This document shows positions 31,263 to 39,152 of a stretch of 56,973 bases of DNA, piece after piece (position 1 is the first letter of the stretch; every line of letters begins with the position of its first letter). The notes below the pieces were generated by a model. That model did no database searches, was not told where the DNA came from, and was given only the letters and a program-made list of their open reading frames with translations. Source of the DNA: Mycolicibacterium canariasense (lineage in GTDB: Bacteria; Actinomycetota; Actinomycetes; Mycobacteriales; Mycobacteriaceae); NCBI RefSeq assembly GCF_002101555.1, contig NZ_LQOL01000040.1, positions 1 through 56,973 of the forward strand. The letters are read 5' to 3'. Both the position numbers and the translations under genes were made by a program.

Positions 31263-34200
31263 ATGGGAATCAAGGTGGCGCTGGAGCACCGCACCAGCTA
31301 CACGTTCGACCGGCTGGTGGAGGTGTACCCGCACGTGGTGCGGCTGCGCCCGGCGCCGCATTCCCGCACCCCGATCGATGCCTACTCGCTGCAGGTGGAG
31401 CCGGCCGACCATTTCATCAACTGGCAGCAGGATGCGTTCGGAAACTACCTGGCCCGGTTGGTGTTTCCGAACCGGGCCAGCAGCCTGACCATCACGGTCG
31501 GCCTGATCGCCGATCTCAAGGTGATCAACCCCTTCGACTTCTTCATCGAGGACTGGGCCGAGACGGTTCCGTTCGCCTATCCGGCGGCGCTGGCCGAGGA
31601 TCTCAAGCCCTACCTGCGACCCGTCGAGGGATCCGACGAGCTGACCGCGGCGTGGGTGAAAAACTTCACGGTCCCTGCCAAGACGAGGACCATCGACTTC
31701 CTGGTGGCGCTCAACCGCGCGGTCAACGCCGACGTCGGCTACAGCGTCCGGATGGAACCCGGCGTGCAGGCGCCGGATTTCACCCTGCGCACCGCGATCG
31801 GCTCATGCCGGGATTCCGCGTGGCTGCTGGTCGCCATCCTGCGCAAGCTGGGCTACGCCGCGCGGTTCGTGTCCGGCTACCTGGTCCAGCTGACCTCCGA
31901 CGTGGAAGCGCTCGACGGCCCGTCCGGCCCGGCCGCCGACTTCACCGATCTGCACGCCTGGACCGAGGTCTATGTCCCCGGTGCCGGCTGGATCGGGCTG
32001 GACCCCACCTCCGGGTTGTTCGCCGGGGAGGGGCACATCCCGCTGTCGGCCACCCCGCACCCGGAGTCGGCTGCGCCGATCACCGGTGCCACCGGCCCGT
32101 GTGAGACCACCCTGGAATTCACCAACGTGGTGACCCGGGTGCACGAGGACCCCCGGGTCACGCTGCCCTACACACCGGCCGCCTGGTCGGCCATCGTGGA
32201 TCTGGGGGAGAAGGTCGATGCTCGGCTGGCGGCCGGCGACGTGCGGCTGACCGTCGGAGGCGAGCCGACGTTCGTATCCGTCGACAATCAGACCGACCCC
32301 GAATGGACCACCGAGGCCGACAGCCCGCACAAGCGGCAGCGCGCCTCCGCGCTGACCGCCCGGCTGAAGAAGGTGTGGGCCCCGCACGGCCTGGTGCAGC
32401 GCAGCCAGGGTAAGTGGTATCCCGGAGAACCGTTGCCGCGCTGGCAGATCGGACTGTTCTGGCGACCGGACGGCGAGCCGGTGTGGAGCGATCCGACACT
32501 GCTGGCCGACCCGTGGGCCGAAAGCCTGCCGACACCGGTTCCCGACGGATCCGACGCCCGGTTGCTGGCCGCCGTCGCGGCCGGACTGGGGCTGCCCGCG
32601 ACGCAGGTGCGCCCCGCCTACGAGGACGCCCTGAGCCGGCTGGCCGCCGCGGTACGCCGGCCGGCCGGCGACCCGGTGCTGCCCGCAGACGACCTGGCCG
32701 CCGACGACGCGGACCGGCGCGGCGCCCTGCTGGCCCGACTCGACGAGCCCGTCGCCGAGCCCGCCGCCCACGTGCTGCCCCTGCATCGCCGCGAGGACGA
32801 CTCGGGCTGGGCCAGCGCGGACTGGAAACTGCGCCGCGGCCGGATCGTCCTGCTGGAGGGCGATTCACCGGCAGGCCTGCGGCTGCCGCTCAACTCGATC
32901 AGCTGGCAGCCGCCACGCCGCACCTTCGAGGCGGACCCGCTGACCTCCCGTGGCGCGTTGCGGCTCGGTCCCGCCCCGCAGCAGGCGCCGGTCGAGGAGA
33001 CCGAGGACGCCCCCACCACGGCGCTGGTGGCCGAGATCCGCGCCGGCTTCCTCTACGTCTTCCTGCCGCCCACCGACACCCTGGACGATTTCACCGACCT
33101 GGTGGCGCGCATCGAAGCCGCCGCCGCGGAGATCGACACGCCGGTGGTCATCGAGGGGTACGGGCCGCCGCACGACGCCCGGCTGACGGCCATGACCGTG
33201 ACCCCCGACCCCGGGGTCATCGAGGTCAACGTCGCACCGACGGGCACCTTCGCCGAGCAGCTGGCGCAGCTGGAGACGCTGTACGAACAGGCCCGGCTGG
33301 CCCGGCTGTCCACCGAGTCGTTCGACGTGGACGGCACCCACGGCGGCACCGGGGGAGGGAACCACATCACCCTCGGCGGGATCACCCCGGCCGATTCGCC
33401 ACTGCTGCGCCGCCCCGATCTGCTGGTGTCGCTGCTGACCTACTGGCAGCGCCACCCGTCGCTGTCCTATCTGTTCGCCGGCCGGTTCGTCGGCACCACC
33501 TCGCAGGCCCCGCGGGTCGACGAGGGCCGCTCGGAGGCGTTGTACGAGTTGGAGATCGCTTTCGCCGAGATCGCGCGGCTGACCGAGATCGGCGCGTCGA
33601 AACCGTGGGTGACGGACCGCGCCCTGCGGCACCTGCTCACCGACATCACCGGTAACACCCACCGCGCCGAGTTCTGCATCGACAAGCTCTACAGCCCCGA
33701 CAGCCCGCGGGGCCGGCTCGGTCTGTTGGAACTGCGTGGCTTCGAGATGCCGCCGCACCACCAGATGGCGATGGTGCAGTCACTGCTGGTGCGGTCGCTG
33801 GTGGCGTGGTTCTGGGACGAACCGCTGCGCGCGCCGCTGATCCGGCACGGCGAGAACCTGCACGGCCGATACCTGTTGCCGCACTTCCTGATTCAGGACA
33901 TCGCCGATGTGGCCGCCGACCTGCGTGCGCACGGCGTCGACTTCGACACCAGCTGGCTGGATCCGTTCACCGAGTTCCGCTTCCCGCGGATCGGTACCGC
34001 GGTGTTCGACGGGGTGGAACTCGAGCTGCGCGGCGGCATCGAACCGTGGAACGTGCTCGGTGAGGAGTCCACCGCGGGCGGCACCGCGCGCTACGTCGAC
34101 TCCTCGGTGGAACGCGTGCAGGTGCGCCTGATCGGGGCCGACCGGCACCGCTATGTCGTCACCGCCAACGACCACCCGATCCCGTTGCTGGCCACCGACA

Positions 34201-34556
34201 AGGCCGACGTCCAGGTCGGCGGGGTGCGGTACCGGGCCTGGCAACCGCCCAGCGCGCTGCACCCGACCATCACCGTCGACGCCCCGCTGCGTTTCGAGCT
34301 CGTGGACGTGCTGACCGGCACCTCCAAGGGTGGGTGCACCTACCACGTCGCGCACCCGGGCGGGCGGGCCTACGACACCCCACCGGTCAACGCCGTCGAG
34401 GCCGAATCCCGCCGCGGACGTCGGTTCGAAGTGGCGGGATTCACACCGGGTCGGGTGGACCTGTCCGATATCCGGGAGAAGCAGGCCCGGCAGTCCACCG
34501 ATATGGGCGCGCCGGGCATCCTCGACTTGCGCCGGGTGCGTACCGTTCTGCGGTAA
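31263..34556 (+). CDS. Transglutaminase-like/DUF2126 large protein (Rv2566 type)
   Basis: The product has 1097 residues. Residues 4-80 form the beta-rich transglutaminase N-terminal domain (ALEHRTSYTFDRLVEVYPHV). The papain-like transglutaminase core follows, with a complete triad: Cys182 (IGSCRDSAWLL), His231 (DLHAWTEV) and Asp247 (GLDPTSG). From about 332 comes the long DUF2126 region (RLTVGGEPTFVSVDNQTD, later THGGTGGGNHITLGG). No signal peptide is seen, so it acts in the cytosol. The ATG is 41 nt after the HxlR gene. Its TAA shares an A with the next ATG. In the predicted ATP-grasp amidoligase systems it would cut or form amide bonds on a peptide; no activity is established. Confidence 0.9.
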   Translation: MGIKVALEHRTSYTFDRLVEVYPHVVRLRPAPHSRTPIDAYSLQVEPADHFINWQQDAFGNYLARLVFPNRASSLTITVGLIADLKVINPFDFFIEDWAETVPFAYPAALAEDLKPYLRPVEGSDELTAAWVKNFTVPAKTRTIDFLVALNRAVNADVGYSVRMEPGVQAPDFTLRTAIGSCRDSAWLLVAILRKLGYAARFVSGYLVQLTSDVEALDGPSGPAADFTDLHAWTEVYVPGAGWIGLDPTSGLFAGEGHIPLSATPHPESAAPITGATGPCETTLEFTNVVTRVHEDPRVTLPYTPAAWSAIVDLGEKVDARLAAGDVRLTVGGEPTFVSVDNQTDPEWTTEADSPHKRQRASALTARLKKVWAPHGLVQRSQGKWYPGEPLPRWQIGLFWRPDGEPVWSDPTLLADPWAESLPTPVPDGSDARLLAAVAAGLGLPATQVRPAYEDALSRLAAAVRRPAGDPVLPADDLAADDADRRGALLARLDEPVAEPAAHVLPLHRREDDSGWASADWKLRRGRIVLLEGDSPAGLRLPLNSISWQPPRRTFEADPLTSRGALRLGPAPQQAPVEETEDAPTTALVAEIRAGFLYVFLPPTDTLDDFTDLVARIEAAAAEIDTPVVIEGYGPPHDARLTAMTVTPDPGVIEVNVAPTGTFAEQLAQLETLYEQARLARLSTESFDVDGTHGGTGGGNHITLGGITPADSPLLRRPDLLVSLLTYWQRHPSLSYLFAGRFVGTTSQAPRVDEGRSEALYELEIAFAEIARLTEIGASKPWVTDRALRHLLTDITGNTHRAEFCIDKLYSPDSPRGRLGLLELRGFEMPPHHQMAMVQSLLVRSLVAWFWDEPLRAPLIRHGENLHGRYLLPHFLIQDIADVAADLRAHGVDFDTSWLDPFTEFRFPRIGTAVFDGVELELRGGIEPWNVLGEESTAGGTARYVDSSVERVQVRLIGADRHRYVVTANDHPIPLLATDKADVQVGGVRYRAWQPPSALHPTITVDAPLRFELVDVLTGTSKGGCTYHVAHPGGRAYDTPPVNAVEAESRRGRRFEVAGFTPGRVDLSDIREKQARQSTDMGAPGILDLRRVRTVLR

Positions 34557-37246
34557 TGGTCCTTCGCACGAACGGCTCACCGGAGCCGAACATCGGTGTG
34601 ACCGCCACCACCCCGGGCTCCACCGAGGATGTGCTGGTGGGGTATCGCGCTGCCCGCGCGCAGCAGGCCCTCTTCGACATCCGCGGCATGGCGGGCAGCG
34701 GCTACGACGAATTCGTGGACCCCGCCGGCGCTATCCGCCCCACCTGGCAGGAGCTCGCCGAGTGCGTCGCCGACCGCGGCCGCGGCGGCCTGGACCAGCT
34801 GCGCGCCACGGTGCGCGGCCTGGTCGACGACGACGGCATCACCTACGTCCACGTCGACCCCTCGGCACCGGCCAGCAACGGCGTCGCGATGCCGTGGCAT
34901 CTGGACGCGCTGCCCCTGCTGGTGTCGGCCGGCGACTGGAACACCCTGGAAACGGGTCTGGTGCAGCGGTCCCGGCTGCTGGACGCCGTGCTCACCGACC
35001 TGTACGGCGACCGGCGGTCCATCACCAGCGGGGTGCTGCCACCGCAATTGCTGTTCGCCCATCCCGGTTATGTGCGGGCCGCGCACGGTATCGAGGTGCC
35101 CGGCCACCATCAGCTCTTCCTGCACGCGTGCGATATCAGCCGCGCCGCCGACGGCACCTTCCGGGTGAACGCCGACTGGACCCAGGCGCCGTCGGGCGCC
35201 GGGTACGCGATGGCCGGCCGGCGCGTCATCACCCACGCCGTCCCCGAACTGTACGAGCGGGTGGGGCCGCGCCCGGCCTCGCCGTGGGCGCAGGCCCTGC
35301 GGCTGGCGCTGATCGACGCCGCGCCCGAGACCGCCGAGGAACCCGTCGTCGTGGTGCTCAGCCCGGGGGCACACTCCGAGACGGCGTTCGACCAGGCCTA
35401 TCTGGCCACCGTGCTGGGCTTCCCGCTGGTGGAGAGCGCCGATCTGGTGGTGCGCGACGGCCGGTTGTGGATGCGCTCGCTGGGCACCCTGAAACGGGTG
35501 GACGTGGTGCTGCGCCGCATCGACGCCGAGTACGTCGACCCGCTCGATCTGCGTGCCGACTCCCGGCTCGGCGTGGTGGGGCTGGTCGAGGTGCTCCGCC
35601 GCGGTGCGGTGACGGTGGTCAACACCCTGGGCAGCGGCATCCTGGAAAGCCCTGCGCTGCTTCGCTTCCTGCCCGAGCTGGCCGAGCTGCTGGTGGGGGA
35701 GACACCCCAGCTGAACAGCGGCGGGGTGTACTGGGCCGGGTACCCCAACGAGCTCTCGCACATCCGGGCCAATCTGGCCGCGCTGCTGATCAAACCGGTC
35801 GACGGCGGGCGCACCATCGTCGGACCGACATTGTCGCCGAGCCGCCGCGAGGAACTGGGCGCGCAGATCGCGGCCACCCCGTGGCGCTGGGTGGGCCAGG
35901 AGCTGCCGGAGTTCTCCTCGGCGCCCACCGATTACTACAAGGGTGGGCTGTCCGCGGCGAGTGTGGGGATGCGGCTGTTCACGGTCGCGCAGCGCGGCGG
36001 TTACGCACCCATGATCGGCGGCCTGGGATTCCTTCCGGCTCAAGGTAGTTCGGCCTACACGCTGAATACCGTTGCCGCCAAGGATATCTGGGTGCGCACC
36101 CCGGACCGGGTCAGGGCCGTGCCGGCGCCGTCGGTGGAGCCGGCTCCGACCTATGTCGCCGCCGCAGCGGCTCCGGTGATGACGCCCAGCCCGACACGGG
36201 CGGTCACCTCGCCGCGTGTGCTGTCGGACCTGTTCTGGATGGGCAGGTACGCCGAGCGCGCCGAGCACATGGCGCGGTTGCTCACCGTCACCCGGGAGCG
36301 CTATCACGAATACCGGTACCGCCAGGACATGGCGGGCAGCCTCTGCGTGCCGGTGCTGCTCGCGGCGATCGGCTGGGTCACCGGTACCCACACCGGCGGC
36401 GGCGACGACCACGAGATGATCGCCATCGCGCCGAGCACCCTGTGGGAGGTGACCGCCGACCGGCGCCGGCCCGGATCGCTGGCGCAGTCGGTGGAACGGC
36501 TGGGGTTGGCCGCACGCGGGGTGCGCGACCAGATGTCCAACGACACCTGGATGGTGCTGGCCGCGGTGGAGCGCGCCGTCGGGCACCGCACCGCCACCCC
36601 GCCGGAGTCGCAAACCGAAGGCGATGCGTACCTGGCGGCCGCACACAGTCAGACGCTGGCGGGCATGCTGGCACTGTCCGGGATGGCCGCCGAGTCGATG
36701 GTGCAGGACGTCGGCTGGACGATGATGGACATCGGCAAACGCATCGAGCGCGGCCTCGGGCTGACCGCACTGCTGCGGGCCACCCTCACCGATGTGCGTG
36801 CCCCGGACGCCGAACAGACCATCACCGAATCCACGCTGGTGGCCTGCGAATCGTCGGTGATCTACCGCCGCAGGACACTGGGCCAGATCAGCCTGGCCGC
36901 GCTGGCCGACCTGGTGCTGTTCGACGGGGAGAATCCGCGCTCGCTGGCCTATCAGTTGGAGCGGCTGCGGATCGGGCTGAAGCGGTTGCCGTCGGCCTCC
37001 GGTGCGTCGCGCCCGGAACGACTCGTCGACGAGATCGCCGCCCGGCTGCGCCGCACCGACCCGCAGGACCTGGAGTTGGTCACCGCCGACGCCCGGGGCG
37101 GCACCCGCACCGAACTGGCCGATCTGCTCGACGGCATCCATGCCGGCCTGCGCGACCTCTCCGGCCTGATCACCGCGTCGCACCTGTCCCTGCCCGGCGG
37201 CATGCAGCCGCTGTGGGGACCCGACGAGAGGCGCGAATTACCGTGA
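34556..37246 (+). CDS. Circularly permuted ATP-grasp/alpha-E domain fusion (Rv2567 type)
   Basis: The product has 896 residues. About 40-500 is the circularly permuted ATP-grasp type 2 domain (FDIRGMAGSGYDEFVDP, VDPSAPASNGVAMPWHLD, LLFAHPGYVRAAHG, VVVVLSPGAHSETAFD, IKPVDGGRTIVGPTLS), which should activate a carboxylate with ATP and join it to an amine. A Pro/Ala linker leads to the alpha-E domain (about 555-880; LFWMGRYAERAEHMARLL, then the C-terminal DLSGLITASHLSLPGGM). In many bacteria these are two genes; here they are one chain. ATG 34556 overlaps the previous stop (TAATG) and the 3' end overlaps the next GTG (GTGA). The substrate is unknown. Confidence 0.92.
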   Translation: MVLRTNGSPEPNIGVTATTPGSTEDVLVGYRAARAQQALFDIRGMAGSGYDEFVDPAGAIRPTWQELAECVADRGRGGLDQLRATVRGLVDDDGITYVHVDPSAPASNGVAMPWHLDALPLLVSAGDWNTLETGLVQRSRLLDAVLTDLYGDRRSITSGVLPPQLLFAHPGYVRAAHGIEVPGHHQLFLHACDISRAADGTFRVNADWTQAPSGAGYAMAGRRVITHAVPELYERVGPRPASPWAQALRLALIDAAPETAEEPVVVVLSPGAHSETAFDQAYLATVLGFPLVESADLVVRDGRLWMRSLGTLKRVDVVLRRIDAEYVDPLDLRADSRLGVVGLVEVLRRGAVTVVNTLGSGILESPALLRFLPELAELLVGETPQLNSGGVYWAGYPNELSHIRANLAALLIKPVDGGRTIVGPTLSPSRREELGAQIAATPWRWVGQELPEFSSAPTDYYKGGLSAASVGMRLFTVAQRGGYAPMIGGLGFLPAQGSSAYTLNTVAAKDIWVRTPDRVRAVPAPSVEPAPTYVAAAAAPVMTPSPTRAVTSPRVLSDLFWMGRYAERAEHMARLLTVTRERYHEYRYRQDMAGSLCVPVLLAAIGWVTGTHTGGGDDHEMIAIAPSTLWEVTADRRRPGSLAQSVERLGLAARGVRDQMSNDTWMVLAAVERAVGHRTATPPESQTEGDAYLAAAHSQTLAGMLALSGMAAESMVQDVGWTMMDIGKRIERGLGLTALLRATLTDVRAPDAEQTITESTLVACESSVIYRRRTLGQISLAALADLVLFDGENPRSLAYQLERLRIGLKRLPSASGASRPERLVDEIAARLRRTDPQDLELVTADARGGTRTELADLLDGIHAGLRDLSGLITASHLSLPGGMQPLWGPDERRELP

Positions 37247-38109
37247 CCGTTCGGGGTTACGAGATCACCCACCGCACCACGTACCGGTACTCCGACGTGG
37301 TCACCAGTTCCTACGGCCGCGGCTTCCTCGTCCCGCGCAGTTCCTCGCGGCAGCGGTGCCTGGCCCACGAGCTGCTGGTGGATCCCGAGCCGGCCGACAG
37401 CTCCACCGGCCGCGACGCGTACGGCAACATCAGCTCGTACTTCCACGTCACCCAACACCACCGTATGCTGACGGTGACCAGCCGCTCGGTCGTCGAAGTC
37501 GACGTGCCGCCGCCCGACCAGTACGACGGCGACGAGCTGCGGATGCCTTGGGAGCGGGCCCGGCCCGCCGGGCTGGCCTGCGAATTCGCCATGGACCTGG
37601 TGCCACCGGAGATCAACGACTCCGTGATCGCCTACGCCGCACCCACTTTCACGCCGGGGCGACCGCTGATCGACGTGGTGCGCGAACTCACCACCCGCAT
37701 CTACACCGACTTCACCTACCTACCGGGATCCACCACGGTCTCCACCGGGGTGGCCGAGGTGCTGGCCGCGCGTGAGGGCGTGTGCCAGGATTTCGCCCGG
37801 CTGGCCATCGCCTGCCTGCGGGCCAACGGGCTGGCGGCAAGCTATGTCTCGGGCTACCTGGCCACCGACCCGCCGCCCGGTAAGGAGCGCATGGTCGGCG
37901 TCGATGCCACCCACGCCTGGGCGTCGGTGTGGACGCCGGGGGACCGCTGGGTGGCCTTCGACCCGACCAACGACCAATTGATCGACGAACGCTACGTCGT
38001 CGTCGGCTTCGGGCGCGATTATGCCGACGTTCCCCCGTTGCGCGGCATCATCTACACCGACTCGGAGAGTAGCGTGATAGACGTCGCGGTCGACGTCGCA
38101 CCGTATTAG
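37243..38109 (+). CDS. Transglutaminase-family protein (Rv2569c type)
   Basis: The product has 288 residues: N-terminal beta domain (YEITHRTTYRYSDVVTSSYG, 5-24), then the transglutaminase core with Cys181 (EGVCQDFARL), His224 (DATHAWASV) and Asp240 (AFDPTND). No signal peptide is seen. As a cysteine peptidase-fold enzyme it could remove or transfer the product of the ATP-grasp protein. GTG 37243 overlaps the ATP-grasp stop (GTGA), so translation is coupled. A second, full-length transglutaminase in the same operon implies two distinct steps. Confidence 0.92.
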   Translation: MTVRGYEITHRTTYRYSDVVTSSYGRGFLVPRSSSRQRCLAHELLVDPEPADSSTGRDAYGNISSYFHVTQHHRMLTVTSRSVVEVDVPPPDQYDGDELRMPWERARPAGLACEFAMDLVPPEINDSVIAYAAPTFTPGRPLIDVVRELTTRIYTDFTYLPGSTTVSTGVAEVLAAREGVCQDFARLAIACLRANGLAASYVSGYLATDPPPGKERMVGVDATHAWASVWTPGDRWVAFDPTNDQLIDERYVVVGFGRDYADVPPLRGIIYTDSESSVIDVAVDVAPY

Positions 38110-38120
38110 GGGGAGAGTGC

Positions 38121-39152
38121 ATGCGGGACTTCACGTGTCCGAACTGTGGTCAGCGGCTTGCCTTCGAGAACTCGGTGTGTCTGTCCTGTGGTGCGGCGCT
38201 GGGTTTTTCGCTCGACGATATGGCCTTGCTGGTCATCACCACCGGCAAGGCGAGTGTGAACGCCGGTGCGGTCGACCACGCCGAATACCAGCTTTGTGCC
38301 AATCTTCATCTGGCCGAATGCAATTGGCTGGTGCGGACCGCCGATCAACGCCTCTGCGTGTCCTGCACACTGACCCGTACCCGGCCCGGTGACGACGACG
38401 ACAAGGCGCTGGCGGCCTTCGCGATCGCCGAAAAGGCCAAGCGGCGCCTGATCGCCGAGCTGTACGAGTTGCGGTTGCCGCTCGTCGGGCGTGACCTGGA
38501 CCCCGATTACGGGTTGGCCTTCGACCTGCTCTCCAGCGAGCATCAGCAGGTGCTGACCGGGCACGTCAACGGCGTGATCACCCTGGATCTGGCCGAGGGC
38601 GACGACGTGCACCGCGAACAGCTGCGGGTCGAGATGTCCGAGCCGTACCGCACCCTGCTCGGGCATTTCCGCCACGAGATCGGCCATTACTACTACTACC
38701 GGCTGGTCGGGTCGACGCCGGATTACCGCAAGCAGTTCGAGGAGCTGTTCGGCGATCCGGACGCCGACTACCAGGCCGCGCTGGACCGGCACTACCGAGA
38801 CGGCGCGCCGGCGGGCTGGGACTCGGACTACGTCTCGTCGTATGCCACCATGCACCCGGCCGAGGACTGGGCCGAGACCTTCGCCCACTACCTGCACATC
38901 CGCGACACCCTGGACACCTCGGCGGCGTTCGGGTTCGCCCCGGCCAGCGCTACCCTCGAACGAAAGGTACTGGGGCCCAGCGGGTTCGACACCATCATCG
39001 AAATGTGGCTGCCGTTGGCGTGGGCGCTGAACATGGAGAACCGCTCGATGGGCAAGGATGACCTGTACCCGTTCGTGCTACCACCGGCCGTGCTGGAGAA
39101 GATGCGCTTCATCCACACCGTCATCGACGAGGTGACGACCGCTACGGCGTGA
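38121..39152 (+). CDS. Zinc-ribbon HEXXH putative metallopeptidase (Rv2568c type)
   Basis: The product has 343 residues. Residues 6-23 hold a zinc ribbon (Cys6, Cys9, Cys20, Cys23: CPNCG and CLSCG). After a further Cys-rich stretch (QLCANL, AECNW, LCVSC) comes a predicted zinc peptidase core with His185-Glu186-Ile-Gly-His189 (RHEIGHYY). The downstream PAEDWAETFAHYLH supplies Glu248/Glu252 and His as likely third ligands. GGGGAGAG just before the ATG is the ribosome site (11-nt gap from the previous gene). It closes the operon and overlaps the stop of the convergent SDR gene by 11 bp. It is a candidate processing or hydrolysis step; no substrate is known. Confidence 0.9.
   Translation: MRDFTCPNCGQRLAFENSVCLSCGAALGFSLDDMALLVITTGKASVNAGAVDHAEYQLCANLHLAECNWLVRTADQRLCVSCTLTRTRPGDDDDKALAAFAIAEKAKRRLIAELYELRLPLVGRDLDPDYGLAFDLLSSEHQQVLTGHVNGVITLDLAEGDDVHREQLRVEMSEPYRTLLGHFRHEIGHYYYYRLVGSTPDYRKQFEELFGDPDADYQAALDRHYRDGAPAGWDSDYVSSYATMHPAEDWAETFAHYLHIRDTLDTSAAFGFAPASATLERKVLGPSGFDTIIEMWLPLAWALNMENRSMGKDDLYPFVLPPAVLEKMRFIHTVIDEVTTATA

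Follow-up and report, generated by a model that had tools for sequence, protein, structure and literature searches.

A mycolicibacterial transglutaminase operon as a probable arm of a two-arm amide-ligase system with a predicted pseudo-ATP-grasp

What is made, or unmade, by an operon that encodes two transglutaminases, an ATP-grasp/Alpha-E fusion and a zinc-ribbon metallopeptidase? The question is raised by positions 31263 to 39152 of a 56,973-nucleotide contig of Mycolicibacterium canariasense (NZ_LQOL01000040.1; this whole stretch of DNA is termed the window), where four co-directional genes are read from the forward strand. A preliminary description of the locus saw in them a set able to activate a carboxylate, form an amide and remove it again. 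Our analysis leads to an altered reading, which on balance we favor: the operon makes up one of the two arms of an amide-ligase system, in which a DUF2126 domain is likely to be the ligase of this arm and the ATP-grasp of gene 2 is likely to be a non-catalytic, substrate-binding pseudo-ligase.

Gene 1 (31263..34556, 1097 aa) fuses a transglutaminase-like domain (TG1, residues 1 to about 270) to DUF2126 (Pfam matches Bact_transglu_N, Transglut_core and DUF2126, the last at 1147.7 bits). The ATG of gene 2 (34556..37246, 896 aa) overlaps the gene 1 stop by one base (TAATG); its product joins a circularly permuted ATP-grasp, of a class that we call LONG and predict to be a pseudo-ligase, to an Alpha-E domain (CP_ATPgrasp_1/2 and Alpha-E). 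Gene 3 (TG2; 37243..38109, 288 aa) starts with GTG, overlaps gene 2 through GTGA and is again transglutaminase-like (Bact_transglu_N and Transglut_core). Gene 4 (38121..39152, 343 aa) encodes a zinc ribbon and a HEIGH-containing Peptidase_Mx domain (Zn_ribbon_DZR_6 and Peptidase_Mx). Intergenic distances are −1, −4 and +11 nt. These coordinates and overlaps bear out the junctions first described, and the circularly permuted ATP-grasp of gene 2 is likewise supported as a fold, by Pfam and by a fold match.

Whether gene 2 activates anything is a separate matter. Circularly permuted ATP-grasp proteins encoded near such genes split into two clades, SHORT and LONG (tree of 113 proteins minus two fragments, L116_8292 and L136_13349), and gene 2 belongs to LONG. 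The E and N of an E-x-N motif – E-D-N in the SHORT relatives, where we take both residues to be metal ligands – are present in 57/57 SHORT and 0/85 LONG proteins, from Actinobacteria to Bacteroidota. The 85 comprise 74 from the alignment, in which E and N are each found in 37/37 SHORT and 0/74 LONG, and 11 from the 12 loci that have no DUF2126 (L065, with a partial LONG, was left out). At this position gene 2 has A206-D207-W208 (35171..35179, forward strand), and the SHORT glycine loop (KPVEGSGGYGIVFG) is replaced by the shortened stretch K413-G423 (KPVDGGRTIVG; 35792..35824, forward strand); across the 74 LONG proteins the loop is gone or scrambled. Gene 2 lacks, then, both the E-x-N metal ligands and the glycine-rich loop of catalytic circularly permuted ATP-grasp ligases. 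Its first half matches the fold of Cp1B, homoglutathione synthetase, GspS and YgiC/YjfC: Cp1B requires E163 and N165 and the GspS sequence carries E-x-N, whereas gene 2, with the same first-half fold, has neither E nor N at the position. Because the motif is absent throughout LONG, carboxylate activation by the gene 2 ATP-grasp appears unlikely from its sequence; and since it is without active-site residues that relatives need, gene 2 is likely to be a non-catalytic partner of an intact SHORT copy elsewhere in the genome. The preliminary description had made its proposal depend on the nucleotide-binding residues of the ATP-grasp, and these are lost from gene 2 and all other LONG proteins read for E and N. 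What survives of that proposal is a conserved unit of amide-forming and amide-cleaving families; activation through gene 2 is not supported.

Such a SHORT copy exists. This genome yields two CP_ATPgrasp_2 matches, gene 2 itself and a SHORT protein on another contig (C60, locus L033) that has E-D-N and GSGGYG; after its gene come an Alpha-E gene and a transglutaminase gene, each on its own. Among 120 genomes of the order (Mycobacteriales), Alpha-E was found in 62, LONG in 33, DUF2126 in 21 and full-length Peptidase_Mx in 33 (two fragments, in G082 and G108, both with Alpha-E, were dropped from 35). LONG labels came from scores, and all 33 were then confirmed as gene 2 relatives (the window, 20 and 12 others). 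In every one of the 33 a second Alpha-E match is of the SHORT type, and by this match the SHORT partner was counted, the SHORT ATP-grasp itself being read in nine of them (our own genome and eight more); the second Alpha-E of G070 was left out of examination. All 21 genomes with DUF2126 have LONG, all 33 with Peptidase_Mx have Alpha-E, and Peptidase_Mx and LONG occur together in 28 genomes and each alone in five. Outside the order, 37 genomes chosen from 80 loci, mostly those showing one arm at the locus, were labelled from open-frame length and score only: LONG is present in 26, all 26 with SHORT (one as a fragment: the SHORT Alpha-E of G159 gives 63 bits), and SHORT and DUF2126 without LONG in 11. 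LONG was thus always seen with SHORT in the sampled genomes (33/33 and 26/26). At the 80 loci both arms and the DUF2126 gene lie in one stretch in 23 cases (21 with both proteins in the tree, L116 and L136 having one arm as a dropped fragment), SHORT only in 14, LONG only in 31 and neither in 12, many of them short. The co-occurrence expected in the preliminary description therefore holds in a nested form: LONG always with SHORT, and DUF2126 always with LONG, except in the 11 genomes outside the order.

DUF2126 is predicted from its structure model to supply another ligase fold. This domain makes up about 800 of the 1097 residues of gene 1, and the part modelled (residues 285-1097; 32115..34556, forward strand) has a predicted glutamine-synthetase-like fold. 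DUF2126 is a putative amidoligase, a second amide-ligase candidate in the operon, absent from the preliminary description. In 51 sequences from several phyla, DUF2126 has many invariant E, H, R and N residues, which include (in gene 1 numbering) E334, E631, E654, N656, H701, E803, E823 and R825. Rv2566 of Mycobacterium tuberculosis is described as combining a transglutaminase-like domain with a carboxylate-amine ligase domain in one protein (PMC2588565). The closest listed relative of gene 1 is a Mycolicibacterium cosmeticum protein with 98% identity; M. smegmatis mc2 155 also has a DUF2126 gene. Twelve genomes of the order (L054-L065) keep LONG and TG2 with no DUF2126 match, so that no intact ligase is recognised at their LONG locus.

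Several observations weigh against the reading that we favor. LONG proteins keep D at the first motif (67/74), a basic residue at the K413 position (K in 52 and R in 18 of the 74) and the K and D of KDxW (73/74 and 74/74), and in 8/74 there is Asp at the E position; some nucleotide binding may thus be possible. As E. coli GspS could not be aligned by profile, the metal-ligand assignment rests on the motif pattern, the fold match and the Cp1B data. Genomes of the order are related, so that Fisher values for co-occurrence overstate independence. A GlnR-like pattern shows no enrichment, either in the window or at C60. DUF2126 accompanies SHORT alone in 11/37 genomes and LONG is without DUF2126 in 12/33 genomes of the order: each is found without the other, and the parts are separable. 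Finally, the proteasome-like protease Anbu of Yersinia is reported to have captured no specific partner from its operon when it served as bait (PMC6376114), a mild mark against a tight assembly. The retained residues can be built into an alternative in which gene 2 is an active if atypical ATP-grasp: with D193, K413 and K509-D510 in place and a conserved DRTQAPSG/DWTQAPSG stretch, replaced ligands would bind ATP or another phosphodonor, and there would be two working ligases. We consider this unlikely, given that N and E are both absent from 74/74 LONG proteins, that the glycine loop has gone or is scrambled, and that residues of the matching kind are needed in Cp1B.

Is the arrangement in the window itself meaningful? 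In all 20 relatives with DUF2126 that were examined, a single stretch holds TG1-DUF2126, the ATP-grasp/Alpha-E fusion and TG2, which shows that this is no chance neighborhood; Peptidase_Mx shares the stretch in 14. Sixteen of the 20 are co-directional and four (L037, L049, L050 and L051) form two convergent pairs, a split also seen in L077, L080, L082 and L083. Several families of Mycobacteriales share the co-directional layout, as do other actinobacteria (Propionibacteriales L087, Nocardioides L088, Microbacterium L142). It is the commoner form and probably the ancestral one, and the split looks derived. The preliminary description had thought the fully co-directional form informative; with so many relatives sharing it, the window shows the ordinary layout. 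The M. tuberculosis genes Rv2566-Rv2569c, which according to the preliminary description are not one operon, are likely to be orthologous and probably lie there in two convergent pairs rather than in a single operon as here; the split relatives are consistent with that layout.

The transglutaminases are intact. Both carry the Cys-His-Asp triad of the transglutaminase-like superfamily, at the residues originally given (C182/H231/D247 in gene 1, C181/H224/D240 in gene 3), and it is complete in 73/73 TG2 and 101/101 TG1 sequences, the latter count being biased since the scan patterns lay in TG1, including its His motif. Intact triads beside LONG mean that the loss of E-x-N is not general decay. 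We take Rv2569c to be the TG2 orthologue. It is reported to be a serine protease of the cell wall, sensitive to AEBSF and PMSF and not to E-64 or N-ethylmaleimide (PMC11081392), a pattern at odds with the invariant cysteine triad of TG2. Were TG2 a surface protease as claimed for Rv2569c, its place in the operon would be incidental and the genes would act apart. This seems very improbable: the inhibitors suggest a serine enzyme yet the Cys triad is invariant, TG2 of the window has no hydrophobic N-terminal stretch, and LONG and TG2 are found in one stretch in 20/20 relatives with DUF2126 and in 12/12 genomes of the order without it. Further, in 47 of 53 loci from genome contigs a transglutaminase on the same strand follows LONG at a distance of up to 2.5 kb; the other six are four convergent mycobacterial pairs and two loci ended by a contig edge.

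Gene 4 is a member of Peptidase_Mx, with HEXXH and a match to the family profile (PF15887, 333.5 bits); PF10005 also matches the protein, at 81.2 bits. HEIGH at residue 185 and a zinc ribbon, both noted earlier, are confirmed, the protein having eight Cys; H185, E186, H189 and the eight Cys are invariant in 12/12 cases. Peptidase_Mx is found in 20/80 loci, in Actinobacteria, Bacteroidota and Gammaproteobacteria. The same genome holds a second zinc-ribbon Peptidase_Mx gene (L192:7491-8528, contig C56), around which no ATP-grasp or transglutaminase was recognised among the open reading frames of at least 250 aa that were read. It had been suggested that the HEXXH protein takes the place of Anbu, which is too simple. 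A gene labelled here as Anbu-like recurs in 14/69 loci (L085 to L153); one representative matches Proteasome weakly, its 20.4 bits falling below the cut-off of 22.4. Most of these genes adjoin the DUF2126 gene, the SHORT Alpha-E or the transglutaminase of SHORT, those of L092 and L098 are closest to TG2, and L123 carries both an Anbu-like and a Peptidase_Mx gene. In the M. canariasense genome a PF00227 profile search found no Anbu: the only matches are two genes side by side on another contig, a placement from which we take them to be 20S alpha and beta, and as the Pfam profile is weak for Anbu a copy may have been missed. Two further genes recur near the system. One, of 410 aa and without a Pfam family (L101:8767-9999), is present in 8/69 loci, all Proteobacteria by title, and lies a median of 106 bases from the nearest system gene; the other, weakly ParA/MinD-like (L097:16942-17679; CbiA 21.5 bits, below cut-off), is present in four methanotroph loci (L092, L097, L102 and L107) at a median gap of 39 bases.

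What might the two arms do together? Most likely the SHORT and LONG genes form a system for the synthesis and turnover of an amide conjugate. The intact SHORT ATP-grasp of C60 and DUF2126 would each be ATP-driven, activating a carboxylate and linking it to an amine; gene 2 would hold substrate or product, and Alpha-E would couple the arms. TG1, TG2 and the SHORT transglutaminase would transfer or hydrolyse the amide, and Peptidase_Mx may trim or recycle the product. Phosphate release by the ATP-grasp of the Yersinia Anbu operon (PMC6376114) lends the ligase step of this scheme indirect support. Two ligase families in the company of several hydrolase families would also fit the tagging of proteins with a peptide or amino acid, proteases then removing the tag or destroying the target, as first proposed for such sets (the proposal is cited in PMC5666114 and PMC6376114). 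We regard tagging as rather improbable. The gaps of −1, −4 and +11 nt leave no room for a small gene between the operon genes (the search for a tag did not extend to distant genes), PMC2588565 reports that this family has no Pup-like small conserved open reading frame nearby, and the solved fold neighbors of gene 2 include makers of small amides (glutathione, glutathionylspermidine and E-64 precursors).

For the amide-conjugate system, our best guess at the substrate would be a peptide or peptide-amine conjugate that is made or recycled under nitrogen shortage. A role in nitrogen starvation is a guess by analogy, borrowed from Pseudomonas Anbu data: P. putida KT2440 has an Anbu operon, nitrate as compared with ammonium induces PP_2685 and PP_2688 (PMC8050072), and Anbu is reported to be upregulated when P. 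putida is nitrogen-limited (PMC5666114). In marine metagenomes, these domains are associated with genes for urea (PMC3597751). All these data come from outside LONG and the mycobacteria. At C60 (L033:10197-14913), about 1 kb after the SHORT transglutaminase, lie genes for a purine/allantoin-type permease, a Rieske oxygenase and a creatininase-family protein, and upstream of the SHORT operon, at about 4 kb, there is a gene of the formamidase family; these nitrogen-compound genes may be there by chance.

Gene sets of ATP-grasp, Alpha-E, transglutaminase and glutamine-synthetase-like amidoligase were reportedly described by Iyer et al. in 2009. Such sets are cited in PMC5666114, PMC6376114 and PMC3597751. 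The domain families here are the same, including the circularly permuted ATP-grasp and the glutamine-synthetase-like ligase; unlike those sets, the operon has a LONG ATP-grasp/Alpha-E fusion without E-x-N and glycine loop, Peptidase_Mx is added, and the intact ATP-grasp sits on another contig. Compared with the Anbu operon of Pseudomonas and Yersinia, the ATP-grasp, Alpha-E and transglutaminase genes correspond to the C60 locus, no Anbu gene was found, and the window operon is the other arm. The families and neighborhoods are already known; a LONG class without E-x-N tied to SHORT is a variant that we did not meet in the literature reached by search, and we claim no priority.

A broader proposal, which we find plausible and put forward tentatively, is that bacteria across phyla keep a pseudo-ATP-grasp/Alpha-E, never without its intact paralogue, as a dedicated regulatory or substrate-holding pseudo-ligase; a simple amide ligase would thereby become a two-arm machine for synthesis and recycling, in which DUF2126 is the second ligase. 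For these widespread genes, the two-arm finding singles out DUF2126 and the SHORT ATP-grasp as ligase candidates. Ligase activity is not expected from gene 2, and the two arms are worth studying together. LONG and SHORT offer a test case for a pseudo-enzyme kept beside its active paralogue across phyla.
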